Made by a program: the position numbers and the translations under genes. Of a stretch of DNA of 64,000 bases, positions 7,966-64,000 are shown piece by piece. The DNA comes from Oscillospiraceae bacterium (lineage in GTDB: Bacteria > Bacillota > Clostridia > Oscillospirales > Ruminococcaceae), in contig JAGAJN010000031.1 in NCBI GenBank assembly GCA_017828975.1, positions 62,001 through 126,000 of the forward strand, in the 5' to 3' direction. The notes under the pieces were generated by a model that did no database searches, had not been told where the DNA came from, and was given only the letters and a program-made list of their open reading frames with translations. How positions within the stretch are numbered: the first letter of the stretch is position 1; every line of letters starts with the position of its first letter.

Positions 7966-9417
7966 TTGAATAATTATATAACAGTCCAAGAAGCAGCACA
8001 AAAATGGGATTTAACTCCAAGACGCATTCAAATACTTTGTAATGAAGGGCGTATTGATGGAGCTGTTAAAATAAGCAGAGTTTGGCTAATTCCAGCTTCT
8101 GCACCTAAGCCTGCTAAACAAACTAAAATAGCAAAAAATGAAAAGAGAAAGCCCAGTATTAATGTCCTTTCACTTTTCTCAGGCTGCGGCGGAATGGATT
8201 TAGGATTTGAGGGTAATTTTGAGGTTCTTGCAACGTCTGTAAACAAAAATGTAAACCCTCAATGGGACATTACAGAAATCGATGAAAATTGGGTTAAGTT
8301 GCCGAAAACTCGCTTTCACACTGTTTTTGCTAATGACATACGAGAAGATGCCAAAAAAGCTTGGACAAACTATTTTGGTAATAGAGGAATAAGCAGTTCA
8401 ACGTATTGTCTTGATAGTATTGTTGACCTTGTAAAGCTGCATAAGGAAAACGGGGTGAAAATATTTCCTAAAAACATTGATATTGTAACAGGTGGCTTCC
8501 CTTGCCAAGATTTTTCCATTGCGGGGAAAAGATTGGGTTTTGGTTCCGACAAAAGTCATAAAGGCAAGAAACTAAATGAAGATACTCCAAGCATTGAAAG
8601 CAGAGGACAGTTATATATGTGGATGCGTGAAGTCATAGCAATTACGCAACCTAAAATGTTTGTTGCTGAAAATGTAAAAGGTCTTGTCAATTTAGGAGAC
8701 GTGAAATCAATCATTGAACATGATTTTAGTACTATTGGTGGCGATGGATATCTTGTAGTTAGTGCGAGGGTTTTGCACGCTGCTGATTATGGTGTGCCAC
8801 AATCCAGAGAACGTGTTATTTTCTTTGGTTTCAAAAAATCTGCGTTGAATAAAGAAGCAATGATTGCACTTTCATCTGAGTGTATTCCTGAAGAGTACGA
8901 TCCATACCCTTTGGTCACCCACGCATACAATAACAATGGAAAATGTTTATTGCCTCCTGTAACATTAAGGCAAGCCTTTGTGGGGTTGGAAGAACCTCAA
9001 ATGTCAGCCGATATTTCACAGCAAAAATACTCGAAAGCCAAGTATATGGGAAAGCATTGTCAGGGACAAACCGAGGTTAAGCTAGACGGAATTGGACCAA
9101 CTATACGTTCAGAGCACCACGGAAATATAGAGTTCCGTCGATTAAGTGCAGAACACGGTGGAAAGAATATTGCTGAATTAAATAGCGGACAAGATGAAAG
9201 ACGACTTACAATTCGTGAATGCGCTCGTATTCAAACTTTCCCTGATAGTTATGATTTTGTTTTCAAAAATAAAAAAACAGGTGAAAGTGTATCGGCTTCT
9301 GAAGCATACAAACTAATAGGAAATGCTGTACCACCTTTGTTGGGATTTCATATAGCAAAACGACTTGAATTGCTATGGGATAAATATTTCGGAGGAGAAA
9401 ACGATGATAATTTCTGA
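7966..9417 (+). CDS. DNA (cytosine-5) methyltransferase with N-terminal HTH
   Basis: This 483-aa enzyme should methylate C5 of cytosine in the recognition site of the neighbouring nuclease. Residues 1-45 form a helix-turn-helix like those of excisionases (ITVQEAAQKWDLTPRRIQIL). The m5C core then follows: motif I NVLSLFSGCGGMD (about 66), motif IV GGFPCQDFS with catalytic Cys180, motif VI VAENVKGLV, motif VIII QSRERVIFFG, and motif X LIGNAVPP. The start is a TTG with GAGGTGA upstream. N-terminal HTH domains in this enzyme class are known to autoregulate expression, which fits the palindrome in its promoter. The next gene overlaps its end. Confidence 0.93.
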   Translation: MNNYITVQEAAQKWDLTPRRIQILCNEGRIDGAVKISRVWLIPASAPKPAKQTKIAKNEKRKPSINVLSLFSGCGGMDLGFEGNFEVLATSVNKNVNPQWDITEIDENWVKLPKTRFHTVFANDIREDAKKAWTNYFGNRGISSSTYCLDSIVDLVKLHKENGVKIFPKNIDIVTGGFPCQDFSIAGKRLGFGSDKSHKGKKLNEDTPSIESRGQLYMWMREVIAITQPKMFVAENVKGLVNLGDVKSIIEHDFSTIGGDGYLVVSARVLHAADYGVPQSRERVIFFGFKKSALNKEAMIALSSECIPEEYDPYPLVTHAYNNNGKCLLPPVTLRQAFVGLEEPQMSADISQQKYSKAKYMGKHCQGQTEVKLDGIGPTIRSEHHGNIEFRRLSAEHGGKNIAELNSGQDERRLTIRECARIQTFPDSYDFVFKNKKTGESVSASEAYKLIGNAVPPLLGFHIAKRLELLWDKYFGGENDDNF

Positions 9418-10477
9418 AAACAGAAAACCACCTCTTGAAGCGTTTCGTGAACTGATGATTAGAACGGATGAAACACTTAACGCTGAAGCAATTGGAAGAG
9501 AAAAGTATTATAGTGGTCGCAATGGTACACAGCTTGAAGAAGATGTATGCGATGCGTTAACCAGATGCGCCATAAATACGCCTTTTGAAGGAACGATCCA
9601 GTTGGTTTCAGGAGCTTCATTCCCTGATATTGTTGCAAGCAAGTATTATGGCGTTGAGGTTAAAAGCACAAACAAGAACCATTGGAAATCAATAGGAAGT
9701 AGCATATTGGAGTCAACAAGAAACCAAAGCGTAGAAAGAATATTCCTTACATTTGGAAAGCTTGGTGCACCTATCGCATTTAAAAGCCGTCCTTACGAAG
9801 AATGTTTATCAGGTATTTCCGTTACGCACTATCCAAGATATCAGATAGATATGGAGCTTGGTATCGGTGAAACCATTTTTGATAAAATGGGTGTTCCGTA
9901 TGATACGTTGCGTAAAATGGATAATCCCGTTGCCCCTGTTTCACAGTATTATAAAAAGCAACTAAAACCGGGTGAAAGTTTATGGTGGGCATCCGACGCA
10001 GATGTAGAAGAAACTGTTGCGCCACCCACAGTAAAGCTTTGGAGTGCCTTAACTCCAGAAGAAAAGAACATATACACAGTTAAAGGATATGCGTTATTTC
10101 CGGAAATACTTACTCCAAACAGCACAAAGAAATATCAACGCTATGCTCTTTGGCTGGCGACACATTGCGGTATTATAAACACCAATATTCGTGACCAATT
10201 TTCTGCAGGAGGGCGTGTTGATATTGTTACAGACAAAGGTGTGTATGAAAAAATGCCTGCTGCATTTGGACGCATCGCAAAACACAAAGATTTAATAATT
10301 GATACCATAATTACAGAGAATTCTGACCTTTTGAAAGAATATTGGGAACTGCTTGATAGTGTTCCCGAAAATCGTATTCTATATTGGTGTCAGCTTGTTG
10401 CATTAGCTGCAGGTAAAAACTCCAAAAGCGAATGTAAAAAGATATATTGTATGTTGAAGACTATTTTTAGTATATAA
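9404..10477 (+). CDS. Probable type II restriction endonuclease (PD-(D/E)xK)
   Basis: The protein has 357 residues from the ATG at 9404, which has GGAGGAGA eight bases upstream and overlaps the methyltransferase stop. The nuclease motif is visible as FPDIVASKYYGVEVKSTNK (D then E-x-K). The stretch before it (SGRNGTQLEEDVCDAL) carries the conserved acidic helix residue. Gene overlap with a cytosine methyltransferase makes a restriction-modification pair the best reading. The recognition sequence cannot be deduced. The C-terminal half is unfamiliar and may hold target recognition. Confidence 0.82.
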   Translation: MIISENRKPPLEAFRELMIRTDETLNAEAIGREKYYSGRNGTQLEEDVCDALTRCAINTPFEGTIQLVSGASFPDIVASKYYGVEVKSTNKNHWKSIGSSILESTRNQSVERIFLTFGKLGAPIAFKSRPYEECLSGISVTHYPRYQIDMELGIGETIFDKMGVPYDTLRKMDNPVAPVSQYYKKQLKPGESLWWASDADVEETVAPPTVKLWSALTPEEKNIYTVKGYALFPEILTPNSTKKYQRYALWLATHCGIINTNIRDQFSAGGRVDIVTDKGVYEKMPAAFGRIAKHKDLIIDTIITENSDLLKEYWELLDSVPENRILYWCQLVALAAGKNSKSECKKIYCMLKTIFSI

Positions 10478-52875: not shown

Positions 52876-53076
52876 ATGAATGACAACAATATGGGCTGTC
52901 TTTTTACAAGCGTGACGAGCGCATTTCCGCCCGAAACGCCCCTCGGAATGGCATACGTGCCTTTTCAGCAATGGGAAGAGCCGCTCCCCGAAAATACTGC
53001 GCTGGAAAACGGAACTATCTTTCCGAGTTTGGTGCTTCCTTTTGTAGGAAAGGAGGTCCCGTATAATGACCGCTGA
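52876..53076 (+). CDS. cotJA: Spore coat-associated protein CotJA
   Basis: This 66-aa protein has the CotJA pattern: LGMAYVPFQQWEEPL, followed by a Pro-rich stretch ending at PFVGKEVPYND. The operon cotJABC encodes inner spore-coat proteins made in the mother cell. AAAGGAA precedes the ATG, and the end overlaps cotJB. Confidence 0.9.
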   Translation: MNDNNMGCLFTSVTSAFPPETPLGMAYVPFQQWEEPLPENTALENGTIFPSLVLPFVGKEVPYNDR

Positions 53077-53329
53077 ACAGAGAAATCTCCTTAACGCTAT
53101 CAGAATGTACGATTTCTATATCACAGAGCTGACCCTTTATCTGGATACTCATCCCAGATGCAGACGTGCGCTGGACAAATTCAGCAAATACACCGAGCTT
53201 CGCCAAAAGGCATATGACGCTTATGCGGAGAAATACGGTCCTGTTACCGCCGTTCAGTCCCTTGCGTCGGGCGGCGATTGCTTCAAATGGGTCGAGGACC
53301 CCTTCCCATGGGAAAGGAGTGCTAATTAA
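53066..53329 (+). CDS. cotJB: Spore coat protein CotJB
   Basis: This 87-aa protein shows the CotJB signature: IRMYDFYITELTLYLDTHP, then YAEKYGPVTA and FKWVEDPFPWE. The start overlaps the cotJA end and has AAAGGAGG upstream. The last base of its stop is the first base of the cotJC start. Confidence 0.92.
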   Translation: MTAEQRNLLNAIRMYDFYITELTLYLDTHPRCRRALDKFSKYTELRQKAYDAYAEKYGPVTAVQSLASGGDCFKWVEDPFPWERSAN

Positions 53330-53535
53330 TGTGGAAATATGAGAAAAAGTTACAATACCCCGTAAATATCAAGAACCCCAATCCCAAGGCGGCTAAGTTT
53401 ATCATAAGTCAGCTTGGAGGTCCAGACGGTGAACTGGCTGCCTCTCTTCGTTATCTCAATCAGCGGTTCAGTATGCCTTATTCGCAGCTGAAAGGTCTGC
53501 TTACGGATATTGGCACCGAGGAACTGGCACAATAA
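53329..53535 (+). CDS. cotJC: CotJC, 5' part of an interrupted gene
   Basis: CotJC is a coat protein of the manganese-catalase family, normally about 190 residues. This frame matches it for 67 residues (MWKYEKKLQYPVN ... GPDGELAASLRYLNQR ... DIGTEELA) and then reads Gln and a stop because an element begins here. The first metal ligand (Glu35 in GELAA) and Glu65 of EExxH are present; His68 is supplied by the other half at 63689. Joining TGGCACA at 53525 with TGGCACA at 63682 restores the frame. Confidence 0.92.
   Translation: MWKYEKKLQYPVNIKNPNPKAAKFIISQLGGPDGELAASLRYLNQRFSMPYSQLKGLLTDIGTEELAQ
53525..53531 (+). repeat. Left core of the cotJC element
   Basis: TGGCACA lies within CTG GCA CAA of the 5' cotJC part; the same heptamer is at 63682-63688. 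The wider context GAA(C/T)TGGCACA is shared. Confidence 0.8.
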
Positions 53536-53544
53536 ACATATACA

Positions 53545-53590
53545 CAAAAAAAGCCGCCCCGAGGAGCAAAACCCTCCCCAAGGCGGCACT
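53545..53590 (-). terminator. Terminator of the leftward phage transcript
   Basis: On the minus strand GCCGCC and GGCGGC close a long GC-rich stem with an inner pair, followed by seven T. It protects cotJ from antisense transcription by phage genes. Confidence 0.85.
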
Positions 53591-53592
53591 TA

Positions 53593-53985
53593 TTATTCGT
53601 CCCTATTTTTAAGCTGCTCCAGAACGTCAAGCAGCTTCTTCGGCACAGGCACCCCAATGCGCCCTGCGTTTTCAATCAGGCTGATACACTCATTGCAAAT
53701 ATAAAACACAACGGTAACGGTTTTGAGCACATGCCCGTCCCCGATGACATTAATGTCCACTATATTTGCCAGCGCAACTATCAGGAGCATAAATATCTTT
53801 TTTGCTATACCCTTAGCGCCCACCGCCGATGACAGCCGCTTCTCCACAGCCGCAGCAATAACGCCCGAAATATAGTCGAGGATAATCAAAGCTATTAACG
53901 CCACCATCAGCCCCTCCATATCTCCGAAGAGAAAGCTCAGAATCGTGCAGATACCCGCCATGATATTTTTAAAAACGTTATCCAT
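53593..53985 (-). CDS. Phage holin
   Basis: This 130-aa protein has three or four hydrophobic segments (LMVALIALIILDYISGVIAA; MLLIVALANIVDI; VFYICNECISLIENAG). This is the pattern of the phage_holin_4_1/TcdE-type family, with the conserved DYISG and NE-SLIENAG motifs. It would form membrane lesions for endolysin release. It overlaps the GH25 fragment by eight bases. Confidence 0.88.
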   Translation of the reverse strand: MDNVFKNIMAGICTILSFLFGDMEGLMVALIALIILDYISGVIAAAVEKRLSSAVGAKGIAKKIFMLLIVALANIVDINVIGDGHVLKTVTVVFYICNECISLIENAGRIGVPVPKKLLDVLEQLKNRDE

Positions 53986-54680
53986 CCGATTTCCTCCTAA
54001 CCACAGTCATACCCAGCTCAGAGCATTCCCGCATAATCATGTCCGCCTGCTCCTCCGTGAGATTGTCGGCGATAGCTGATACCTGAAATCTCTGCTTATC
54101 CTCCGCCGAAAATCCATTCAATCCCTTTTTCTTGATAAATGCGGGATAATCCGTATTGGAAATATTCATATCCACATCACCCGAAATTCCGGGGATATTT
54201 CCCTTCCAAGAATACTGATGCATTCCATACGGCGAATATCTCGGTTCTCCGCCGATGCGGGCTATCCACATAGCATATCGCTTTTTCGTCTTGTCCGTGA
54301 GATTTGTGTAGGCGAATGAGTCAAACGTGTAAACGCCGACAAAATACCCTGCCGCTTCAAGCTTGTCGCAAAATGCCTTTGCAATGTCGTCGCAATTGCC
54401 CCTGTCGACCTGACTTTTCTCTTCAATATCATACCACACAGGGAACGCAAGCTTCTTGCCCTTGATAAGCTTCAGGCAGAATTCTGCTTCCTTCTCAGCT
54501 TCCTCGGGCGAAATAGCATAACTGTAATGGTACACCCCGACAGGGATACCCATACGAACACATTCGGCATAATTTTTCTCAAACTGCCGATCTATCTGCC
54601 TGGAATTTTCCCTGCCGAAACCACATCTCAGAATGACGAATTCCACCTGCCCCGAAGCCTTGACCTTGCTCCAGTCTATC
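53978..54680 (-). pseudogene. GH25 lysozyme-like endolysin lacking its N-terminus
   Basis: The frame matches GH25 endolysins from IDWSKVKASG through FVILRCGFG, GVYHYSYA, VWYDIEEKS (catalytic acidic pair) and HQYSWKG. A C-terminal tail of about 60 residues follows. The normal first strand with its catalytic Asp (GIDVS-type) is missing: upstream of about 54680 the DNA belongs to an AAA gene. The open frame can start only at a GTG (54646). The enzyme is therefore probably inactive. Confidence 0.85.
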
Positions 54681-55226
54681 AGCCCACTCTTTTACAAGCG
54701 GAGCTGTTTGAGAGCTTGTTTTCTTTCCAAGCTTCAACTCATAGCGATCATATGAGCCTGCTTCATCGGGCTGTTCAAACTTTTTTAGATGTGAATGGCA
54801 GTTAAGCACGACATTGCATATATCCTTGTCGATAAGCTCCTGAAGGAGATTCAGAAAACGTCCTATTGCTTCAAACACATATACATATCCGTTGCCATAT
54901 CCGAAATCCTCAATGCCCTTTTTCCCGTGAGTGCTCAGTACATCTTCGACACAAAGCCTTTCCGCCCAGTCCATGGTATCAATAACAAGAGTTTCGCACA
55001 CCTGTGGATTATTCTTAACGAACTCTATGTAATTGAGAAGCATGCTCCAAGATGTGGGCTTATCCTCAAAACGATTCACATCAAGATTCCCTGTGCTGCC
55101 CTCTGTATCAATAAAAAGGGGAGCTGGGAAATTCGCAGCAAGGGTTGACTTGCCAACACCCTCGGGACCATAGATAACGACCTTTTGTCTCTTGCGGACT
55201 ATTCCGCCCGAAATTCTTACATTCAT
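54579..55226 (-). pseudogene. Sak4-like AAA ATPase truncated at its C-terminus
   Basis: From the ATG at 55226, with AAAGGAG before it, the protein shows VVIYGPEGVGKSTLAANF (Walker A), LVIDTMDWAE (Walker B) and VVLNCHSH, typical of phage AAA_24/Sak4 single-strand annealing partners. It matches up to APLVKEWAD. The remaining codons (RLEQGQGFGAGG...) are out-of-frame GH25 sequence. A deletion joined the two genes near 54677-54682. Confidence 0.83.
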
Positions 55227-55239
55227 AATCGATTCTCCT

Positions 55240-55479
55240 TTATACAACCAGATTTATTATATCGGAAACCTTGACCCTTGTTCCGTCATATTTTTCAACC
55301 ATAGAATTTTCAAGTGCATAGTCAATAAGTTCATTGAAAATGTCCTGAGCAGGCTTGTTTGTAGCACTTTTAAGTGCAAGGATCTTTACATAGGAGCTGT
55401 TTGAAATTTTGCAGTTGGTAAAGCCGTCCTCGGGGAAATCTCTTGAGGTGCTTTTGAATATAAGCTTTTCGTCTGTCAT
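55240..55479 (-). CDS. Small phage protein of the recombination region
   Basis: This 79-aa protein starts at the ATG at 55479, overlapping the preceding stop. It is acidic and partly helical (ALKSATNKPAQDIFNELIDY). I do not recognise it. Its place between an SbcC-like and a Sak4-like gene suggests a role in phage recombination or replication. Confidence 0.65.
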   Translation of the reverse strand: MTDEKLIFKSTSRDFPEDGFTNCKISNSSYVKILALKSATNKPAQDIFNELIDYALENSMVEKYDGTRVKVSDIINLVV

Positions 55480-56777
55480 CAGAACATACCTGCCTTCCAT
55501 GTTTTATTTGTTGTGATGGTTTCGCTGACGGGCTGTTCTTCGGATTTAACATATCCGTCCTCGATAATTATACTGCATTCGCTTCCTGTGTAAACTCGTG
55601 TGGCAATTGCCTGTAAACCTTCGGCTTCAAGCCATTCACCAAACTCATTAAGCGTGTCAATATCCATCTGCTCCAGCTTATCCATAAGGACAAAGCCACA
55701 TTCGGGATTAAGCTTGCGGACGATAGCAGCAGCAACTCTGAGCTGTTCCGAACCGCTCATGTAGTCCCATTTCTGCCCCTTATAGGTCAGCTCGCCGTTT
55801 TCAACAGACAGTCCAGGCAAGGGAAGTTCGGCATTATCGAGGAGCTTGCGCCTTGTTGTGCGTATATCTTCAATCTCAGATGTGAGAGAATCATATTCGT
55901 CCTTGTAATGCTTGGCTTCAATCTCGGCTTTTTCCTTGTCGAGGTTGCTGCGAATTTTAATGTTTACAGCTTCAATGTTGCGGATATTGCTTTCAAGCTC
56001 GTCCGTGCTTTCATCGTAAAGTTCTGCCGCCGACAGCTCAGCTATCCTCAAATCCTCGGCAATATCAGACTGCTGTTTCTCCAACTCTGCAAGCTGAGAG
56101 CGGAGTATTTCGATTCTGCTTGTAATATTTGAATATGTTGCTCTGAGCTGTTCTGCTCGGTCACGCTTGCGCTGATTTTCGCCGTTTCGTGCAAGGATCT
56201 CCTGCTGCTGACTGATAAGCTCCGAAACAGATACAGGCTCTTTCGGAATACCCTCGTATTCGGGAAGCTCGGCAGCGTATTTGGCTTTCTGCTCGGCAAT
56301 ACGTCCGATTTCAAGCCTGCGGTTATACAGCTTGTTCTCCTCATTGTCAAGCTCATACAGCTTGTCGCCTACACCGATTATCTGCAAAAGAACGTTTGCT
56401 TTTTCTTTTGAGGAGGATTCCATAAACTTTGGAAGATCCAGCGCAAAACTGCTGATGAAAGCATTCAGGAGCTGTTGACCCGCTCTTTTACCGCTTGCAT
56501 CGGTCACTTTGAGGTCGCTGTTTTTACCGCATCTCTCAACGACTATACCGTTGCTGAGTTTAACCTTCAGATGAGGGGGAACGGCAGAACCGTTGCGAAC
56601 AGCGTCCGAGGGACGGAACTTTTCACCGCCGAGTGCCCAGGCAATGGCATCAAGCACCGATGTTTTGCCCTGGTTATTTTTACCGCCTACAATAGTAAGA
56701 CCATTGGCAGCGGGAGCAAGCTTCACCGCTCTTATACGTTTGACATCATCGAGTTCAAGACTGTTTATTTTGATCAT
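55479..56777 (-). CDS. Phage SbcC/RecF-like ATPase
   Basis: This 432-aa protein has Walker A IVGGKNNQGKTSVLDAIAWA at its start, a central coiled coil (about 170-310), then a signature-like SGSEQLRVAAAIVR and the Walker B GFVLMDKLEQMD. Such short SMC-type proteins often sit beside Sak4-type ATPases in phages of Firmicutes. The Walker B lacks the usual DEP, which may reduce ATPase activity. Confidence 0.87.
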   Translation of the reverse strand: MIKINSLELDDVKRIRAVKLAPAANGLTIVGGKNNQGKTSVLDAIAWALGGEKFRPSDAVRNGSAVPPHLKVKLSNGIVVERCGKNSDLKVTDASGKRAGQQLLNAFISSFALDLPKFMESSSKEKANVLLQIIGVGDKLYELDNEENKLYNRRLEIGRIAEQKAKYAAELPEYEGIPKEPVSVSELISQQQEILARNGENQRKRDRAEQLRATYSNITSRIEILRSQLAELEKQQSDIAEDLRIAELSAAELYDESTDELESNIRNIEAVNIKIRSNLDKEKAEIEAKHYKDEYDSLTSEIEDIRTTRRKLLDNAELPLPGLSVENGELTYKGQKWDYMSGSEQLRVAAAIVRKLNPECGFVLMDKLEQMDIDTLNEFGEWLEAEGLQAIATRVYTGSECSIIIEDGYVKSEEQPVSETITTNKTWKAGMF

Positions 56778-56795
56778 GTTGAGTTTCTCCTTTCA

Positions 56796-57992
56796 TTAGA
56801 ACAAAGTCAATTGTTCGGGCATTTCCTCGGGAATATCCTCCCAAGGCACACCGATATAGTCAAGAACACGTCCCCAGCCATACTCTGTCCCGTCAGCGTC
56901 CTTGCAGATATGTTTCATCCAATATTCCCATGCCTTTGGGTTGGTCTGCCTTAATCGGTCAAACCTGTGTGGACGTGCTTCAATATGTATTCCAAAGCCG
57001 CACATAGTACAGCCTGTCCTCTGCGCCTTAGTCGTGTACAGCGTACCATCAGGCAGACGTTTGATTTCCCCGTATATCTCTGGCACGGGAACGTTAAGGT
57101 CAAGAGCAAGCTGCAAGAGATCCTGTCGATTAAAAATCGCAAACGGGGCAGATCGGATAGAATTTTTGCCGTAATAATTACAGCCGTGCATTTTCAAAGC
57201 CTTCTCACGTCTGCCGCCCTCGGAAGCCATCAGTCCAAGGAAAGGATAACTGTTATGCTCCTTCGCCCAATCATCACAAGGCTTTTCTTTCAGCCAATAA
57301 CAACACTGCGAAGATACCTTGAACTGCGGTATTCGATAGTTAACGCCTTCGTTCTCGTTCTCATAGCCGCCGAATAGGTCAAGCCATTTCTGCGGCAGCT
57401 TCATTCGGCTGTTTTTCCGATAACCTCCATATGCTCCTGTTTCGCCTGTTATAATCGCATGTCTGATAGTGGCATTGTTTTCAGTCGGACTCTGCAAATG
57501 TTCAATTTTAGCGGCTTTTTCCTTCGATATAACAGGAAATCCGAACTCCTGAATAATTCTGTGCTTTGTCCAAGGTCTGCCGTCCTTGTCACGTGCAGGC
57601 TTTAGCGAGATAACGCCTATTTCCTTATGTATTCGCTGAATGCTTTCGTCCTCCAAAGATGATACAGATATTGCAGGAACATCAATGCCAATGCTTTGGA
57701 GAAAGAACAGCAGCGTTATACTGTCCAGCCCGCCCACAGAAACGTGACAATTTGCATAATAGTCACCGACAGGCGAAGTAATGCTGTTGTAAAAATCCCT
57801 AGCCATAACCGTCGCATGCGAAACCTTCGCATCATACGGCATTATCTGCATTTGCTGAAAACGCTCAATGTTTTCTGTGATATGTTCACGCTCGGAACGT
57901 TCTATGCAGTTTTCCTTGTACTGCTTGCCCGAGCGGTCTATCGGAACAGTATCATCATCAATGAATGATAACTGTTCATTTTCAAAATCCAT
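56796..57992 (-). CDS. Phage PAPS-reductase-like PP-loop protein
   Basis: This 398-aa protein starts at the ATG at 57992 with AAAGGA upstream. The PP-loop reads VSVGGLDSITLLFFL, close to the canonical SGGxDS, with Val for Gly. A Cys-rich end (RTGCTMCGFGIHIEARPHRF) resembles phage PAPS-reductase-family proteins. These may act on sulfur or nucleotide chemistry, with unknown substrates. A longer frame to 58106 has no start signal. Confidence 0.82.
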   Translation of the reverse strand: MDFENEQLSFIDDDTVPIDRSGKQYKENCIERSEREHITENIERFQQMQIMPYDAKVSHATVMARDFYNSITSPVGDYYANCHVSVGGLDSITLLFFLQSIGIDVPAISVSSLEDESIQRIHKEIGVISLKPARDKDGRPWTKHRIIQEFGFPVISKEKAAKIEHLQSPTENNATIRHAIITGETGAYGGYRKNSRMKLPQKWLDLFGGYENENEGVNYRIPQFKVSSQCCYWLKEKPCDDWAKEHNSYPFLGLMASEGGRREKALKMHGCNYYGKNSIRSAPFAIFNRQDLLQLALDLNVPVPEIYGEIKRLPDGTLYTTKAQRTGCTMCGFGIHIEARPHRFDRLRQTNPKAWEYWMKHICKDADGTEYGWGRVLDYIGVPWEDIPEEMPEQLTLF

Positions 57993-58068
57993 ACTTGACA
58001 ATCCTTTCAAAACCCTGTATAATAAGGGTGTCCACATTGTGTTTTGAGCCGTTGTACAGTGCCAGCTG

Positions 58069-58257
58069 TCACGGCTCTTTCTTTTTGTCCTCAATAATCG
58101 CAGCAATATCCCTGCACAGCCCGCCGATGAAATCGGGTGCCATGATCAGCAGACCCGTCAGGAATTCCACCTCGATGAACCGCCAGTCCGATTCAATGTT
58201 TATCACCGTGATTATCGACAGCAGTATCAGCGACAGAATGAAATACAGCTTTTCCAT
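58069..58257 (-). CDS. Small membrane protein of the phage remnant
   Basis: This 62-aa protein has two hydrophobic stretches (LYFILSLILLSIITVINI and FLTGLLIMAPDFIGGL). The ATG at 58257 follows GGTGG. Family unknown. Confidence 0.6.
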   Translation of the reverse strand: MEKLYFILSLILLSIITVINIESDWRFIEVEFLTGLLIMAPDFIGGLCRDIAAIIEDKKKEP

Positions 58258-58272
58258 TTTTCTCACCACCTT

Positions 58273-58506
58273 TCAAAACGTCAGAGCCTTGAATGCTGCG
58301 ATGGCACTGTCCTTTTCATGGTATACTCTGATAAGGGCTGCTGTTACGAATTGCCCGGCTATACTCATCCGTGTATACAGGATGTACCATACCTGCCCGT
58401 GCGAATGTTCAACAGTCAGCCCAAAGCCGTATGTATCGTCTGTCATCAGGATAGTTTCATTACTGATTGTTTTTTTCATCAGATCCTGCATTGTGATTTC
58501 AATCAT
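58273..58506 (-). CDS. Hypothetical phage protein (77 aa)
   Basis: This soluble small protein has beta-rich content (ILMTDDTYGFGLTVEHSHGQ) and a GGAGG site before the ATG. Not recognised. It belongs to the leftward early operon. Confidence 0.6.
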   Translation of the reverse strand: MIEITMQDLMKKTISNETILMTDDTYGFGLTVEHSHGQVWYILYTRMSIAGQFVTAALIRVYHEKDSAIAAFKALTF

Positions 58507-58520
58507 TTAATTTTTACCTC

Positions 58521-58790
58521 CTATGTTTTCTGCCCCTCTTTCAGCCAAAACGGCTCAGATCTGAAAATCGACCGCCATAGCTCTTCGGCTTCCTTGTCCT
58601 CGCCCCTGTCGAGCATTCTCCTGCACTGATTGGAATAGACTCTCAGTGCCGTGTCAGCGATATTCTGCAAACGACGCTGATATTCCTCTTCGGTGATGTC
58701 CACACCGACCTCAGGGCGTTCCCATCTGACCTTTGCGACTGTTCCTGTGGATAATACGAAAGTTTCTTCACCTGTTAACATATACAGCAC
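58521..58790 (-). CDS. Hypothetical phage protein (89 aa)
   Basis: This acidic, helical protein has a conserved-looking start (YMLTGEETFVLSTGTVAKVR). The AAAGGAGG site favours the first ATG at 58790. Not recognised. Confidence 0.6.
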   Translation of the reverse strand: MLYMLTGEETFVLSTGTVAKVRWERPEVGVDITEEEYQRRLQNIADTALRVYSNQCRRMLDRGEDKEAEELWRSIFRSEPFWLKEGQKT

Positions 58791-58842
58791 CTCCTTTATA
58801 TGCTATGCGTTTACGGGCTTGTTTGGTGCAAGTCCATTCATG

Positions 58843-59061
58843 TCACAATTCAATTATGTGGTTCACTCCTTCACTTTCCTCTCTGAGAACGACGTACTTT
58901 TTGCCGTTGTAATCTGTGAATTGACCTAAAAAAGTAAGGTTGCACAGAAGTCTTGGCGGCTTTCTTGATGAGGTTGCGTTCGCTGTTTCCCAGCTTGATG
59001 CTGTTCCCCAAATGCAGCCGCCTTCCTTAGTGTTGATACAGATTTTATTAGGATCTATCAT
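58843..59061 (-). CDS. Hypothetical phage protein (72 aa)
   Basis: This basic small protein has three cysteines (Cys8, Cys16, Cys40) and a beta-rich C-terminus (LGQFTDYNGKKYVVLREE). AAAGGAGG lies upstream, and an operator palindrome (59085-59100) lies 24 bases before its start, so it may have its own regulation. Not recognised. Confidence 0.6.
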   Translation of the reverse strand: MIDPNKICINTKEGGCIWGTASSWETANATSSRKPPRLLCNLTFLGQFTDYNGKKYVVLREESEGVNHIIEL

Positions 59062-59084
59062 TCTTCTTTCACCTCCTTTGCGAC

Positions 59085-59100
59085 GTTTCCTTTAGGAAAC
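59085..59100. promoter_or_regulatory. Phage operator O1
   Basis: GTTTCCTTTAGGAAAC is a dyad with seven-base arms and a two-base centre, in the gap between two early genes. Confidence 0.65.
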
Positions 59101-59103
59101 TTA

Positions 59104-59304
59104 TTAAGCAAAAAAAATAGTCAGTAATCGGTCGTCTGTGATATGCAAAGCATCACGAATGGCACATATTTCATTGTGCTTAAACTCACTATCGCCACGC
59201 AAACGGCTATAAATAGTTGCCTTATCCATACCGATCATCTTTGCCAGCTCGGGAACAGTCAAGTTATTTCTTAACAGTTCAATTTTAAACTCAGATGCGT
59301 TCAT
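59104..59304 (-). CDS. Cro-like helix-turn-helix protein
   Basis: This 66-aa protein is essentially one helix-turn-helix domain (LTVPELAKMIGMDKATIYSR). It is the first leftward gene opposite the repressor, the position of a Cro protein. It probably binds the GTTTCCT-N2-AGGAAAC sites. Confidence 0.82.
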   Translation of the reverse strand: MNASEFKIELLRNNLTVPELAKMIGMDKATIYSRLRGDSEFKHNEICAIRDALHITDDRLLTIFFA

Positions 59305-59323
59305 TTGATGTTTTCACCTCCTC

Positions 59324-59339
59324 GTTTCCTTTAGGACAC
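59324..59339. promoter_or_regulatory. Phage operator O2
   Basis: GTTTCCTTTAGGACAC has one mismatch to O1. A half-site AGGAAAC follows at 59381-59387. Confidence 0.65.
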
Positions 59340-59343
59340 TTAC

Positions 59344-59372
59344 AGTATAGCACAGTAACAAAAATTTGTCAA
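59344..59372 (-). promoter_or_regulatory. Leftward early promoter of the remnant
   Basis: On the minus strand TTGACA (59372-59367) and TATACT (59349-59344) are 17 bases apart. O2 lies just downstream of the -10 and the half-site just upstream of the -35. Confidence 0.82.
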
Positions 59373-59413
59373 TAGCTTTTAGGAAACTTTTTTAGTATTT
59401 TTCAAAAAAAGAG

Positions 59414-59442
59414 TTGCTTTTCTGAAACAAGTGTGGTATAAT
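59414..59442 (+). promoter_or_regulatory. Promoter of the phage repressor
   Basis: TTGCTT (59414-59419) and TATAAT (59437-59442) are 17 bases apart, and AGGAGGTG follows before the ATG. Confidence 0.78.
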
Positions 59443-59462
59443 CTCTAGCAGGAGGTGATAAA

Positions 59463-59792
59463 ATGACTACAAGTGAATTTATAGCTCAAAGACGGCGTGA
59501 ACTTGGCTTGACACTTGATGAAGTCGGGAAAGCCTGTGGAGTAGGGAAAAGCACCGTCAAGAAATGGGAAGACGGTTTTATCTCTAATATGAAACGTGAT
59601 AAAATAGCAGCTTTAGCGAAAGTGCTTCAGGTTAATCCGTTACAGCTGATAGGAGATGCTTCCGAAGAAACGCAAAAAAAGTCTGCCCCCGAGTTATCGG
59701 AAGCAGATAGAGAAATATTGGATTTGTTCAATCAGCTTAAAACAGATGATAAGGAAATGGTATTGAAGATTATTCGTAATTCTCTAAAATAG
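59463..59792 (+). CDS. Phage repressor (Xre type, no autoprotease domain)
   Basis: The N-terminal 65 residues are a Cro/CI helix-turn-helix (RRRELGLTLDEVGKACGVGK, then STVKKWEDG). The tail (about 76-109, SEADREILDLFNQLKTDDKE and on) is a helical oligomerisation-type segment. At 109 aa it lacks the LexA-type peptidase domain, so it cannot self-cleave in the SOS response. A convergent 35-aa ORF that resembles its tail overlaps its last 23 bases. Confidence 0.88.
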   Translation: MTTSEFIAQRRRELGLTLDEVGKACGVGKSTVKKWEDGFISNMKRDKIAALAKVLQVNPLQLIGDASEETQKKSAPELSEADREILDLFNQLKTDDKEMVLKIIRNSLK

Positions 59793-59877
59793 CCCTTATC
59801 ATATCAGCAATGGATTGTTTCTCCTCTGCTCCACAAGAGGAGAGCAATTCAAGAAGTTCCTTTTCATAATCGATCAA
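59770..59877 (-). CDS. 35-aa ORF resembling the repressor tail (candidate antirepressor)
   Basis: A TTG start at 59877 has a strong AAAGGAG six bases upstream. The product (starting MIDYEKELLELLSSCGAEEK) aligns without gaps to the repressor tail: YEKELLELL with ADREILDLF, AEEKQSI with TDDKEMV, and MIRAIL with IIRNSL. It is driven by a perfect promoter bearing a LexA-type box. I infer that it forms mixed dimers with the repressor and inactivates it. The ORF is too short for standard gene finders. It could also be a remnant of a duplicated repressor. Confidence 0.6.
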   Translation of the reverse strand: MIDYEKELLELLSSCGAEEKQSIADMIRAILENYE

Positions 59878-59922
59878 TTTTAACTCCTTTCTGCACAAGC
59901 CCGAACGAAATTCCTTAATCGC

Positions 59923-59951
59923 ATTATAGAACATTAGTTCGATAATGTCAA
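59923..59951 (-). promoter_or_regulatory. Consensus promoter with LexA/DinR-type box
   Basis: On the minus strand TTGACA (59951-59946) and TATAAT (59928-59923) are exactly 17 bases apart. The spacer holds GAAC-N4-GTTC (59929-59940), the core of the Gram-positive SOS box CGAAC-N4-GTTCG, with one outer mismatch. It directly abuts the -10 element. Confidence 0.72.
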
Positions 59952-60023
59952 TGTATAATATGCACAAAAATATATTTTGTATTTTTATATGTCCTAAAAT
60001 TTGCACATTCGCAACTTGTAGTA

Positions 60024-60052
60024 TTGACTTTTGCACTATTAAGGTGTATTAT
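60024..60052 (+). promoter_or_regulatory. Promoter of the TPR/DUF4236 pair
   Basis: TTGACT (60024-60029) and TATTAT (60047-60052) are 17 bases apart. The 311-base gap between the repressor and the TPR gene holds only this promoter, the SOS-type promoter and the 35-aa ORF. Confidence 0.65.
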
Positions 60053-60103
60053 AGTAACAGATGTACAATTTTACATACACCAATACATTTGAGAGGTAAA
60101 GAT

Positions 60104-60781
60104 ATGTCACTATTAGAGTCAATCTTTAAAAAAGCTTGCGTTTCAAACGAGGACATAGCATTAGAACTGTTTGAATCTGAGAATGTTGGCGGAAACGTCA
60201 GCTCAGAGGCAAAACGCATTTTGAAATCATGCAGCGGCAGGCAAGAAGTACTGTTGAAGGCTATAGAACTATGTGGTTCCGAACCCGATACCCCAAAAAA
60301 GCTATACATAGTGTCACATTGTTATGTTTATCTTGGTGCTGCGTATCGAAAGCAGGCTATAAAATATCTTGAAGAATATATCTTAAAGGGAGCAGTTTGG
60401 GAAGGAACTCCGGCTGCCAGAATAAGAGAAGATGGTTATATTCTTGACCAGCTGAAAGCAAATCAGGCATCTGTGTACAGTTATCTCGGAAAAGCATATG
60501 AGGGTGAATATGAATTTGAAAAAGCTGAAACGGCATATAAAAGTGCAGAAAGCCTAGCACCGTATTTCGCTGCATATGCAGTGCAGACTGCGGAAACATA
60601 CATAAAACGCAATAATCTGCAAACAGCATTGAACTATCTTGAAAAGTATAAGAAAAGCACTTATTATAAGAAAAATGTAAATGATTATAAGCTGCTTTTG
60701 GACAATGCAATATCCGATATAAATTCAAAGATAAGCAAAGGGTATGTATATAGGCCACGAAAAAAATCAGAAGAGGTGTAA
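60104..60781 (+). CDS. TPR-like helical protein
   Basis: From the ATG at 60104, with GAGAGG upstream, this 225-aa protein has repeated helix pairs: AYRKQAIKYLEEYILKGA, SVYSYLGKAYEGEYEFEKAE, TAETYIKRNNLQTALNYLEK. These look like tetratricopeptide repeats, which bind partner proteins. It lies three bases before the DUF4236 gene, so the two probably act together. Function unknown. A longer frame from 59945 lacks a ribosome site. Confidence 0.75.
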   Translation: MSLLESIFKKACVSNEDIALELFESENVGGNVSSEAKRILKSCSGRQEVLLKAIELCGSEPDTPKKLYIVSHCYVYLGAAYRKQAIKYLEEYILKGAVWEGTPAARIREDGYILDQLKANQASVYSYLGKAYEGEYEFEKAETAYKSAESLAPYFAAYAVQTAETYIKRNNLQTALNYLEKYKKSTYYKKNVNDYKLLLDNAISDINSKISKGYVYRPRKKSEEV

Positions 60782-60784
60782 TAT

Positions 60785-62056
60785 ATGGCAAGACGACGCA
60801 GAAGTATAAGAATAGCAAAAGGAGTTCGGCTTAATCTCGGAAGTACGGGAACGAGCATGACATTTAGCCATCGGGGATTGTTCGGAGGAACAAAAAGCTC
60901 TACTGTTCGATTGACAGGAGGAAGCTCGTCTTCTAAACCAAGAGGAATTGTATTACAGGGAGCTTATAATTTTAATATTAATGATGATGGTACAGTGGAA
61001 TTTTTCGATTCCAGAGGAAATCGAGTGCTCGATGAGAGCCTTATCCGTAAATTGAAATCTACGGAACAATTCAGAATAAAAAAATCGCAGATACTTGAAC
61101 AGCGAAAGATAGAGAAACAGCAGAAATTCCAAGAGGAACAGGATGCTAAGTTTAAAGAGATACAAGGTGAAACCGAAAGCGTTATTTCCATACATAAACA
61201 TACACCAAGAGTTATTACTCAGGACGAGTGCCTTGATGCTATTACTCATATATTCCCGAAAGAATATGTAAAGGAGGAATATACGGCTCTCGTTCCTATG
61301 AAGGATCATATAATAAAAATCCTTTCCAAAGAAGCAGAAAACAACGTAAAAGCTCCTTTTTGGAAAAGAAAGAAGGCAATTGAGGAATACATAGAGCTAC
61401 GAGCAAATGATTTATATAATTTGAGATTAAACGAGTATGAGGAAAACAAGGCAGCTTTTGAACGTAATGAGGAATTAAAAGCTGTTGAAATGAATAAGAA
61501 ATATATTCAAGAGGCAGAAGAACGCAAAGAAGAAATCCGCTGCCTGATGAAAAATGATGAAAACTATATTGAAAGTAAGATAACTAATTGGCTTAAAAAT
61601 ATAGTTCTCACAGTAGACTTTAGTGTTGACTTTGAGTACCGTTCACAGCAAAAGACAATGTATATTGATTTGCTGCTCCCGCCGATAAGTGATATGCCAA
61701 CCGAAAAAGCTGTATGTTTATCAAGCGGAACTGTTAAAGCAAAGTCCAAAACTCAGAAGGAAATCAAGCAAGATTACATACAGTGCGTATTCGGTCTGGC
61801 AGAATATGTTTGCGGTAATACATTTAATTTTAGCACTGCTATTCGGAATATTGTTATTTCAGGATATAATGAAGTACGAGATGACAGAACTGGCAAAATG
61901 GTGGAGAACTGTGTTTATTCGTTGAAGGTTCCAAGAGAAGTGTTTGAAGAAAATGATGTATCTTCAAGAGATCCGCAGGAGTTTTGTCTGTCCTTAGAAA
62001 GCAGATGCAATATTACTGCTTCTTTAGTAATGAAACCTGTTGAACCGTTTGAATAA
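60785..62056 (+). CDS. DUF4236-domain protein
   Basis: This 423-aa protein begins with the DUF4236 pattern (SIRIAKGVRLNLGSTGTSMT, then FSHRGLFGGTKSS). A linker, a coiled coil (about 95-125) and a second charged helical region (about 195-265) follow. The C-terminal part is alpha/beta (IDLLLPPISDM ... FNFSTAIRNIVISGYNEV). DUF4236 is a small beta domain of unknown function, found in many phage and accessory genes. It forms a two-gene unit with the TPR-like protein. Confidence 0.78.
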   Translation: MARRRRSIRIAKGVRLNLGSTGTSMTFSHRGLFGGTKSSTVRLTGGSSSSKPRGIVLQGAYNFNINDDGTVEFFDSRGNRVLDESLIRKLKSTEQFRIKKSQILEQRKIEKQQKFQEEQDAKFKEIQGETESVISIHKHTPRVITQDECLDAITHIFPKEYVKEEYTALVPMKDHIIKILSKEAENNVKAPFWKRKKAIEEYIELRANDLYNLRLNEYEENKAAFERNEELKAVEMNKKYIQEAEERKEEIRCLMKNDENYIESKITNWLKNIVLTVDFSVDFEYRSQQKTMYIDLLLPPISDMPTEKAVCLSSGTVKAKSKTQKEIKQDYIQCVFGLAEYVCGNTFNFSTAIRNIVISGYNEVRDDRTGKMVENCVYSLKVPREVFEENDVSSRDPQEFCLSLESRCNITASLVMKPVEPFE

Positions 62057-62086
62057 ATCTTTCATCTAAAATTCCGACTATAAAAA

Positions 62087-62118
62087 TTCCCGTTCGGTGA
62101 TAAATAACCGAACGGGAA
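62087..62118. terminator. Hairpin between DUF4236 gene and recombinase
   Basis: TTCCCGTTCGGT and ACCGAACGGGAA form a 12-bp perfect stem with an eight-base loop. The T-run lies on the minus-strand side, so rightward termination may be weak. Confidence 0.55.
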
Positions 62119-62137
62119 CAAGAAACGAGGTGTTATA

Positions 62138-63643
62138 ATGGGCTATGCAATCTATCTAAGAAAATCCCGTGCCGACATGGAAGCCGAAGCCAGGGGAGAA
62201 GGGGAAACCCTTGCACGTCACCGCTCACAGCTCCTGGAGCTTGCCCGCCGTCAGAACCTTAACATCACGCAGATTTACGAGGAAATAGTCAGCGGCGAGA
62301 GCATAGCCGCACGTCCTCAGATGCAGCAGCTCCTGTCTGCGGTAAACGAAGGTGTTTTCGACGGCGTTCTGGTTATGGAAATAGAACGTCTTGCTCGTGG
62401 CGATACAATGGATCAGGGCATAGTATCACAGGCATTTAAATTCAGCGGGACGAAAATAATCACCCCCACAAAAACATACGACCCCGCAAACGAATTTGAC
62501 GAGGAATACTTTGAGTTTAACCTGTTTATGTCCCGCCGTGAATACAAGACTATCCGCAGAAGAATGCAGGCGGGCAGAATGGCATCGGTCAAAGAAGGAA
62601 ACTATATCGGATCGCTCCCGCCTTACGGTTACAAGAAAATCAGAAATTATGAGGATAAAGCCTATACTTTGGAACCTATACCCGAAGAAGCGGAAACTAT
62701 CCGCCTGATGTATGAGCTTTATACCACAAAGGAGATGGGATTTTCAAAGATAGCTACCTATCTGAATAAAGCAGGCATACCGCCGAAAGTCACCGATACC
62801 TGGAATACTGCCAGTGTTAAGGGCATTATCCAAAATCCGATATACAGCGGATATCTCCGATGGGATTGGAGAAAAACGCAGAAAAAGCTTGTAGACGGAA
62901 AAGTGGTAACGTCCAGACCAAAATCGGAAGGCACCATTTACAAAGGGAAACACCCCGCCATTATTTCCGAGGAAACATGGCAGGCTGCAAAAGCAATCTG
63001 GGAAGCAGGGGAGCATTTGAATACCAGCTTCGACCGACCCTTGCAGAACTGCTTCGCAGGCTTGATGTACTGCGAGATTTGTGGTCATGCAATGGTAAGA
63101 CGGCCATATTCAAACAATAGGGCAGCACATTATTACTGCGGACACAAAGGCTGTACATGTATGTCGGCATCGGAAACCGAGATTAATGAGATTGTGCTGT
63201 CGTCCCTGAGAAGTCAGCTGCAAAAAGTCAGGGAAATCATAGTAAGCGGGGAAAAATATAATCCCGACGAGTCCAATTCCAAGACCAGGGCGAAGCTTTC
63301 AGCCGAAATTGAAAAGTTGAAAAAGCAGAAGGAAAAGCTCTTTGACCTTCTGGAGCAGGGTGTATACACTACTCAGGTGTTTTTGGAACGTTCAGAAAAT
63401 ATCGAGAGCCGTATTTCTGAGCTGAATAGAATGATCGCCGAGATACCCGACCGTCCGAAGAACACTCCCGAAGAAGCCGCAATCGCTTTGGAATATGCAA
63501 TTAACCGGTATGACGTTGTGGAAACAGCAGCCGAAAAACGTGATATGCTAAAAACTGTGATAAAACGTATCGACTACATCAAAACCACAGGCGGACGCTG
63601 GAAGCCCTCAGACCTAGCCCTTAAAATCACATTCAACGTTTAA
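62138..63643 (+). CDS. Large serine recombinase of the cotJC element
   Basis: This 501-aa enzyme has an N-terminal resolvase domain with catalytic Ser10 in YLRKSRAD, and MEIERLARGDTMDQG with the conserved Arg. A recombinase domain (RMQAGRMASVKEGNYIGSLP and PPYGYKK) follows, then a zinc ribbon (CEICGHAMVRR ... YYCGHKGC) and a coiled-coil motif (about 370-430). The size matches SpoIVCA, the enzyme that excises the skin element. The gene ends 38 bases from the right cotJC junction, as expected for the element's own integrase. I saw no clear sporulation sigma promoter. Confidence 0.95.
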   Translation: MGYAIYLRKSRADMEAEARGEGETLARHRSQLLELARRQNLNITQIYEEIVSGESIAARPQMQQLLSAVNEGVFDGVLVMEIERLARGDTMDQGIVSQAFKFSGTKIITPTKTYDPANEFDEEYFEFNLFMSRREYKTIRRRMQAGRMASVKEGNYIGSLPPYGYKKIRNYEDKAYTLEPIPEEAETIRLMYELYTTKEMGFSKIATYLNKAGIPPKVTDTWNTASVKGIIQNPIYSGYLRWDWRKTQKKLVDGKVVTSRPKSEGTIYKGKHPAIISEETWQAAKAIWEAGEHLNTSFDRPLQNCFAGLMYCEICGHAMVRRPYSNNRAAHYYCGHKGCTCMSASETEINEIVLSSLRSQLQKVREIIVSGEKYNPDESNSKTRAKLSAEIEKLKKQKEKLFDLLEQGVYTTQVFLERSENIESRISELNRMIAEIPDRPKNTPEEAAIALEYAINRYDVVETAAEKRDMLKTVIKRIDYIKTTGGRWKPSDLALKITFNV

Positions 63644-63680
63644 GCATGCCTTTCGTACATATATTTGGTGTGCAAATGAA

Positions 63681-64000
63681 TTGGCACACGTCGAGATGAT
63701 CTCCGCCATACTTTACCAGCTCACCAGAAATTTAAGCATTGACGAGATAAAAAAGAGCGGGTTTGACACCTACTTTGTTGACCACACGACAGGCATCTAT
63801 CCCCAGGCGGCCTCGGGAGCACCCTTTACTGCGGCATATTTCCAGAGCAAGGGCGACCCTATCACCGATTTAACGGAAAATCTTGCAGCAGAGCAGAAAG
63901 CCCGCACCACCTATGACAATATTCTGCGAATGGTAGATGACCCCGACATTATTGACCCCATTAGATTCCTCAGACAGCGCGAGATCGTTCATTTCCAAAG
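63681..64000 (+). pseudogene. cotJC: CotJC, 3' part of an interrupted gene (runs off the window)
   Basis: The frame TTG GCA CAC GTC GAG ATG continues CotJC from residue 66: LAHVEMISAILYQLTRN, GAPFTAAYFQSKGDPITDL, AAEQKARTTYDNIL and RFLRQREIVHFQ. These are the conserved manganese-catalase blocks, including His68 and the EQKAR and REIVH ligands. It has no start signal of its own and depends on excision of the element. It is open to the window end and still lacks about 15 residues of a typical CotJC. Confidence 0.92.
63682..63688 (+). repeat. Right core of the cotJC element
   Basis: TGGCACA starts the 3' part of cotJC and repeats the left core at 53525-53531. Confidence 0.8.

Follow-up and report, generated by a model that had tools for sequence, protein, structure and literature searches.

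In a 64,000-nucleotide stretch of DNA from an Oscillospiraceae bacterium (GCA_017828975.1, contig JAGAJN010000031.1, positions 62,001 to 126,000 of the forward strand; hereafter the window), the gene cotJC, whose product is a spore-coat protein in Bacillus subtilis, is interrupted by inserted DNA. When the contig is followed past the window, the cotJC of this genome proves to consist of three collinear, in-frame pieces separated by two elements, each with its own large serine recombinase (LSR). We consider it likely that both elements are excised at sporulation, in which case the cell would produce complete CotJC at no other stage. An initial annotation of the window had described cotJC as split by one phage element. 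A phage-derived element does interrupt the gene, but a second element cuts its 3′ end, and one excision would thus be insufficient.

The host is a Ruminococcus-like bacterium. In profile searches cotJA, cotJB and the start of cotJC stand in the usual order, and the intact cotJB is the sole CotJB match of the whole genome. The features around the first break are as follows.

52876..53076, plus strand: cotJA, intact (PF11007, E 5.9e-17)
53066..53329, plus strand: cotJB, intact (PF12652, E 2.3e-26)
53329..53535, plus strand: first piece of cotJC, 67 codons and the split codon 68, then TAA (PF05067, profile positions 1-68)
53525..53531, plus strand: left copy of TGGCACA (attL side), shared by both junctions
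53532..63681: element 1, 10,157 bp including one copy of the core, with in-register junctions and the same insertion in the congener G001
63682..63688, plus strand: right copy of TGGCACA (attR side), shared by both junctions
63684..64000, plus strand: second piece of cotJC, codons 67 to about 172 (PF05067, profile positions 67-183)

The initial annotation had placed TGGCACA at both junctions, the break inside the EExxH motif and an LSR at the right end of the element, and all three observations hold. The two copies of TGGCACA lie 10,157 bp apart, and joining the sequence there gives the stop-free reading ...GTEELAHVEMI.... On the left side, the codon for the His of EExxH (codon 68) reads CAA (Gln) with TAA next to it; on the right it reads CAC, so that the His is present only once the pieces are joined. 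Aligned to the structure 1jku, joined CotJC keeps all the manganese-ligand positions (E35, E65, H68, E136 and H169); the ligands of the L. plantarum enzyme we take to be E35, E66, H69, E148 and H181. The 7-mer TGGCACA alone is weak evidence, since it occurs six times in the window. The weight rests instead on its register at both breaks, where 10 of 11 bases agree, on the relatives and on the LSRs, all of which disfavor a chance core.

The second piece of cotJC ends at codon 175, about 10 bases beyond the window. The contig runs on (region L003), and at that point the frame departs from homology at HFQRFGE, whereas the CotJC of several relatives continues ...HFQRFGEALRITQ... to about residue 200. 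Behind HFQRFGE lies a second LSR gene, int2, on the minus strand. The absent end of CotJC, EGLRIVQDNLNSKNFYAFNPSFD (23 codons), is found 5.9 kb downstream, and this region is uninterrupted in G001. Comparing the window genome with G001 by BLAST sets the second break at codons 173-175, with a 9-base overlap, TTCGGYGAA. Hence the earlier statement that joining at TGGCACA restores a full frame stands for the in-frame, stop-free join and fails for the whole of cotJC, whose last 23 codons lie beyond element 2.

L003 11503-17390, outside the window: element 2, 5,888 bp, with int2, a PocR-type hybrid histidine kinase and a response regulator
L003 17391-17465, outside the window: last piece of cotJC, an in-frame tail

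Both int1, the recombinase of element 1, and int2 have about 500 residues with Resolvase, Recombinase and zinc-ribbon domains, which is the LSR architecture; the two are unrelated and fall in separate clades of the LSR tree described below. No phage gene was recognized among the three large open reading frames (ORFs) of element 2. Its PocR-domain hybrid histidine kinase and response regulator (L003 13428-17092) are unusual cargo for a 5.9-kb LSR element. No intact cotJC was found in the genome: PF05067 matches two pieces, and a query across the first break hits the same places. A second, intact copy was the counter-sign named in the initial annotation, and this genome-wide search, in an assembly rated 94.67% complete, returned none.

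Purifying selection is our main argument for excision, and it is silent on timing. In G001, int1 occupies the same position in cotJC and the element is about 94% identical over 4.9 kb; the 3′ end of the gene lacks element 2, and there is an additional break after codon 31. Between the window genome (G000) and G001 we count 27 synonymous and 1 non-synonymous changes in codons 68-174 of cotJC. The counts are 12.5 and 2.5 for codons 1-31, and 6 and 0 for the tail. Other pairs behave similarly. G140 against G349 gives 20 synonymous and 2 non-synonymous changes in the 5′ piece; in its 3′ piece, with saturation at synonymous sites, the counts are 72.5 and 4.5. G179 against G238 gives 28 and 2, and G078 against G233 gives 20 and 1, the fetched DNA of this last pair containing no LSR. 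The ratio of non-synonymous to synonymous divergence (dN/dS) in cotJC is about 0.02 or below in three species pairs with an orthologous element, compared with 0.029, 0.045 and 0.251 in pairs with intact genes, a small set in which the split copies show no sign of relaxation. By these counts the split cotJC is still selected as a protein. Because the pieces after the first lack a start and are nevertheless under purifying selection, cotJC is expected to be made whole regularly. Moreover, synonymous divergence between G000 and G001 is comparable for the element and its flanks (int1 0.345, cotJA 0.255, cotJB 0.495, lysR 0.472, yeiH 0.484), and the insertion of element 1 is therefore probably about as old as the split between the two species.

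These counts bear on a parasitic explanation, in which losing cotJC costs a growing cell nothing, the elements leave only for their own transfer, and the spores of lysogens would go without CotJC. A useless gene would decay, yet the low dN/dS in the three pairs shows the reverse, and we regard this explanation as unlikely. Element 1 also offers little for it, with no structural gene among the scanned ORFs and thus no transfer of its own in view. Some of the observations on other elements given below do fit it.

To place the window genome among its relatives, PF05067 was searched in 396 genomes of the family, 276 of which matched. We searched again in 96 genomes chosen by a weak best E-value or several matches; for the remaining matching genomes we assumed a near full-length gene on the basis of the E-value only, and six with a single weak match stayed outside this set (G035, G070, G071, G217, G284 and G364). 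After 16 rows had been dropped as probable other proteins (most at profile positions of about 11-92, in frames of 171-259 aa), which removed G195 and G263, 94 of the 96 genomes were kept, and 92 of these 94 have no full-length cotJC. Abutting pieces occur in 64 of the 92, in 24 of them on one contig and strand and in the right order; ten genomes carry three or more pieces, and 14 of the 92 a single one. Breaks are most frequent near profile position 66 (58 genomes), followed by positions near 31 (35 genomes) and 148 (22 genomes).

That the pieces are an artefact of assembly, or the remains of a plain pseudogene, we hold to be very improbable. Many of the genomes are fragmented, and in 40 of the 64 with abutting pieces these do not follow one another correctly on a single contig, as an artefact would have it. 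However, 186 of 201 internal piece boundaries fall within three zones that make up 28% of positions 11-184, the joins are in frame, and pieces lie collinear on the same contig in the 24 genomes mentioned; G337 is a single contig carrying three pieces. As a control, SpoIVA was matched in 338 of the 396 genomes of the same draw, and by eye only 7 of the 338 matches are weak enough to look split or truncated. SpoIVA is likewise present, by eye, in 83 of the 92 genomes without full-length cotJC. Both the control and the same-contig cases thus disfavor an assembly artefact.

We fetched 40 regions around breaks from 27 genomes, which with the window genome give 32 junction pairs. Four are irregular (G132, G145, G101 and one of G131, whose pieces are on two contigs). 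In 28 of the 32 junctions the cotJC piece and an LSR are separated by about 0.3 kb at most, and in 31 by no more than 1.7 kb; in G145 the fetched DNA holds no LSR. By script, 30 of the 32 could be joined in frame through a short core common to both sides, following hand shifting or trimming of 14 tblastn anchors. The other two, G238_C and G367_D, in which the hit ends perhaps lie past a stop, were open in an earlier automatic join; that join was misplaced through its tblastn anchors for a few genomes (such as G193, G132, G140, G349 and G101) and was superseded by the shared-core join. The joins are open and at most 3 residues off the reference span in 27 of 32, and G383, G373 and G294 are open but 4-9 residues longer. 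With labels assigned by hand from the junctions, the breaks fall at six sites.

Site A, codon 7: LSRs in L049, L050, L061 and L066; 5′ piece seen in three of the four, join by eye
Site B, codons 30-33
Site C1, codons 62-65
Site C2, codons 65-68: first break of the window
Site D, codons 134-136
Site E, codons 173-175: window genome, G238 and L026

In L049, which belongs to the named strain Ruminococcus flavefaciens MA2007, cotJC starts at 2679 and resumes at 10001, with the LSR at 8506-9981. In L026 the cotJC end turns up again 8 kb further along, where an LSR frame ends. Sites A and E are undercounted in the survey, because breaks there leave long pieces and genomes were selected by E-value. 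In the 1jku alignment, with ligand identities as assumed above, manganese-ligand positions coincide with sites B to E or are no more than about 5 codons away from them. For nucleotide conservation among 73 intact sequences, the 24-bp windows at the six sites rank between the 80th and 98th percentile. The densest stack seen is L104 (G238:C55:24500-44200), where a single cotJC has three LSRs at three junctions (B, C1 and E) within some 17 kb. In four Ruminococcus regions, mostly of R. flavefaciens (L009, L012, L015 and L019), CotJC stops soon after HYQRFGE with no LSR nearby; these short ends may be natural, or may mark distant further breaks at site E.

The recombinases follow the sites. On a tree of 37 LSRs, which leaves out the frames in L050 (far from cotJC) and L085 (a duplicate), the site labels can be explained by 5 changes, the fewest that six labels allow, where shuffled labels need 21.5 on average. 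Sites A, B, C1, D and E each make up one side of a branch, and C2 accounts for two changes, since the A enzymes branch from within the C2 group. The deep joins of the tree are unsure, since long branches meet at its base. The LSRs of G046 and G238, which belong to different genera, are 80% identical, although synonymous sites in their cotJC genes are saturated; the elements therefore move between hosts, as the parasitic explanation would also have it.

The pattern is not confined to the family. PF05067 matched 257 of 393 genomes drawn from the whole class, and when 45 with weak or multiple matches were searched again, the same break positions recurred. Not counted there were G621 and G453 (adjacent pieces), G606 and G665 (overlapping fragments, frame breaks and not insertions) and G511 (ambiguous). 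We fetched 16 regions from 11 of these genomes, which represent 11 other families. In 11 of the regions an LSR is found no more than 600 bp from a cotJC piece, and the fetched DNA of all 11 genomes contains an LSR; three collinear pieces on one contig occur in G515, G770 and G548. Predicted viral contigs carry the arrangement as well. Among IMG/VR loci, 80 with an int1-like LSR were kept, and 13 of them hold a cotJC piece, which adjoins the LSR in 12; these 12 again suit elements that leave for their own transfer. Eight IMG/VR loci, found via cotJC, contain a piece or, in L214, the whole gene, adjacent to an LSR in four of the eight. In L152, L206 and L213 an LSR stands on each side of the cotJC pieces, as two elements side by side.

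Several observations weigh against regular excision as a general account. Some carriers have gaps of tens of kb, up to 81.5 kb; such elements may be active phages or bigger elements, for which parasitism of a gene that growing cells can spare may be explanation enough. In 28 of the 92 genomes there is no abutting pair (one piece, or pieces that do not meet), and some of these may be assembly gaps. The pieces of G132 are 675 kb apart and in the wrong order in a one-contig genome, those of G145 (L106) are in the wrong order, and those of G101 (L107) lie on opposite strands; judging from their layout, simple excision could not rebuild cotJC in these cases (L111/L112 of G132, L106 and L107). Codons 32-65 of the G001 gene were not found in a genome search, so that cotJC may be incomplete there. 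For dN/dS, intact control pairs number only three, and most other compared pairs are too diverged for use: G094-G289, G094-G331, G289-G331, G295-G337, G039-G148, G136-G297 and G046-G238 were left unused as saturated (dN 0.04-0.26), as were G213-G145 and G162-G007 (dN/dS 0.039 and 0.083, dS above 2, no LSR pair). Finally, a hairpin followed by about 20 bp precedes the int1 start, and in a comparison limited to the region upstream of int1 neither a sporulation-type promoter nor a directionality factor was identified.

The other genes of element 1 are as follows.

53593..53985, minus strand: holin (PF05105, phrog_199)
53978..54646, minus strand: GH25 endolysin without the first 30 domain positions (PF01183, positions 31-180 of 180; phrog_291)
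54579..55247, minus strand: Sak4-like single-strand annealing ATPase (PF13479, phrog_124)
55479..56777, minus strand: SMC/SbcC-like AAA protein (PF13476, phrog_1499)
56796..57992, minus strand: PAPS-reductase-like phage protein (phrog_424)
59104..59304, minus strand: repressor-like helix-turn-helix protein (phrog_4583)
59463..59792, plus strand: repressor-like helix-turn-helix protein (PF01381, phrog_8)
62138..63643, plus strand: int1, large serine recombinase (PF00239, PF07508, PF13408)

The stop codon of int1 lies about 40 bp short of the right junction. By Pfam and PHROGs this content is prophage-like, and no structural or packaging family was matched by the 16 ORFs compared with Pfam or the 9 compared with PHROGs at least once (ten proteins, two of them without a match). 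The endolysin, whose domain is missing its start, has a reading frame that overlaps the one for the Sak4-like protein (53978-55247), which suggests that an internal deletion took out the middle of the phage. A PADLOC scan of four proteins for defence cargo left three without a match and gave the fourth only weak matches of ATPase type. In G001, the insert after codon 31 encodes Cas3, Cas5c, Cas8c and Cas7c, a type I-C set (L088, G001:C30, 10071-16234), and may represent a spore-gene element carrying a CRISPR-Cas system.

In B. subtilis, cotJC is a mother-cell coat gene that is silent in growing cells. The elements would use such a gene as a landing pad, because of this silence and because the DNA is conserved around the metal-ligand codons. 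Sporulation would be the natural occasion for their removal, since cotJC is a mother-cell gene and the known cases are linked to sporulation. Each recombinase, with a directionality factor, would recombine its own attL and attR. If this takes place in the mother cell, whose genome is discarded, the germ line would keep the elements.

Intervening elements of sporulation genes have been described as skin in sigK, SP-beta in spsM, vfbin in spoVFB, gin in gerE, yin in yabG and phi3T in kamA, and those in sigK, spsM and gerE are described as excised during sporulation (PMC10747680, PMC5595907, PMC4191935, PMC6957869). Elements 1 and 2 resemble them in each having a serine recombinase of its own, an insertion in a sporulation gene, matching short sequences at the ends (TGGCACA and TTCGGYGAA) and a sequence join that restores the frame. 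By analogy with skin, SP-beta and gin, regular excision most likely occurs in the sporulating mother cell. Alternatively, cotJC could be rebuilt by excision that switches at low frequency during growth, with no sporulation program behind it. We think this quite unlikely, although yin of C. botulinum is described as excised at all time points (PMC10747680) and element 1 carries phage-type repressor genes: with two or three stacked elements, independent rare excisions would seldom yield a whole gene, and the characterized elements in sigK, spsM and gerE are, in those descriptions, under sporulation control.

The cotJC case differs from the known elements in the gene, the six sites, the two or three stacked elements, the several LSR lineages and the many families, and in being known from sequence alone. 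The initial annotation had viewed it as a cotJC counterpart of skin and SP-beta. An insertion in a sporulation gene, in a host that has spoIVA, is what we find, but it is not a lone case; it is one of many at a multi-site hotspot. The gin element of Bacillus cereus gerE is described as a non-prophage element of 28.6 kb with three recombinases; element 2 is like it in having no phage gene among its three large ORFs, and unlike it in its length of 5.9 kb, its single LSR and its two-component system. Durrant et al. (2022; PMC10083194) describe diverse LSR lineages that converge on conserved genes such as those for prolyl isomerase and Mg chelatase, and cotJC is similarly a conserved gene shared by distantly related LSRs. 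Their prolyl isomerase target is one conserved site, however, whereas cotJC offers six sites, stacked elements and a developmental gene. No mention of catalase or cotJ was found in the main text of that paper. In C. difficile, the prophage phi027 is described next to a CotJC-like gene (CDR20291_1465 / cotG); it too is a prophage by a CotJC-family gene, but it adjoins the gene rather than lying within it. Searches of an open-access full-text library turned up no report of an interrupted cotJC.

Taken further, cotJC may be a developmental landing pad throughout Clostridia, on which at least five deep LSR lineages have independently specialized at six sites with up to three stacked elements, the shattered gene being kept under strong selection, even as species diverge, through removal of the elements in every sporulating mother cell. 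We lean towards this broader proposal, with less assurance than for the window genome itself; it would be a bacterial analogue, at the level of DNA, of obligate splicing. The site specificity of these LSRs follows their tree cleanly, which should make the set useful for learning how such enzymes select their DNA, and in many genomes the annotation may give cotJC as absent or truncated. Only a few individual cases of developmental excision are known in spore formers. If the proposal is true, excision would be a common state of one gene across Clostridia, and dozens of natural replicates would be at hand for asking why elements settle in sporulation genes, how their excision is timed and whether the host profits.

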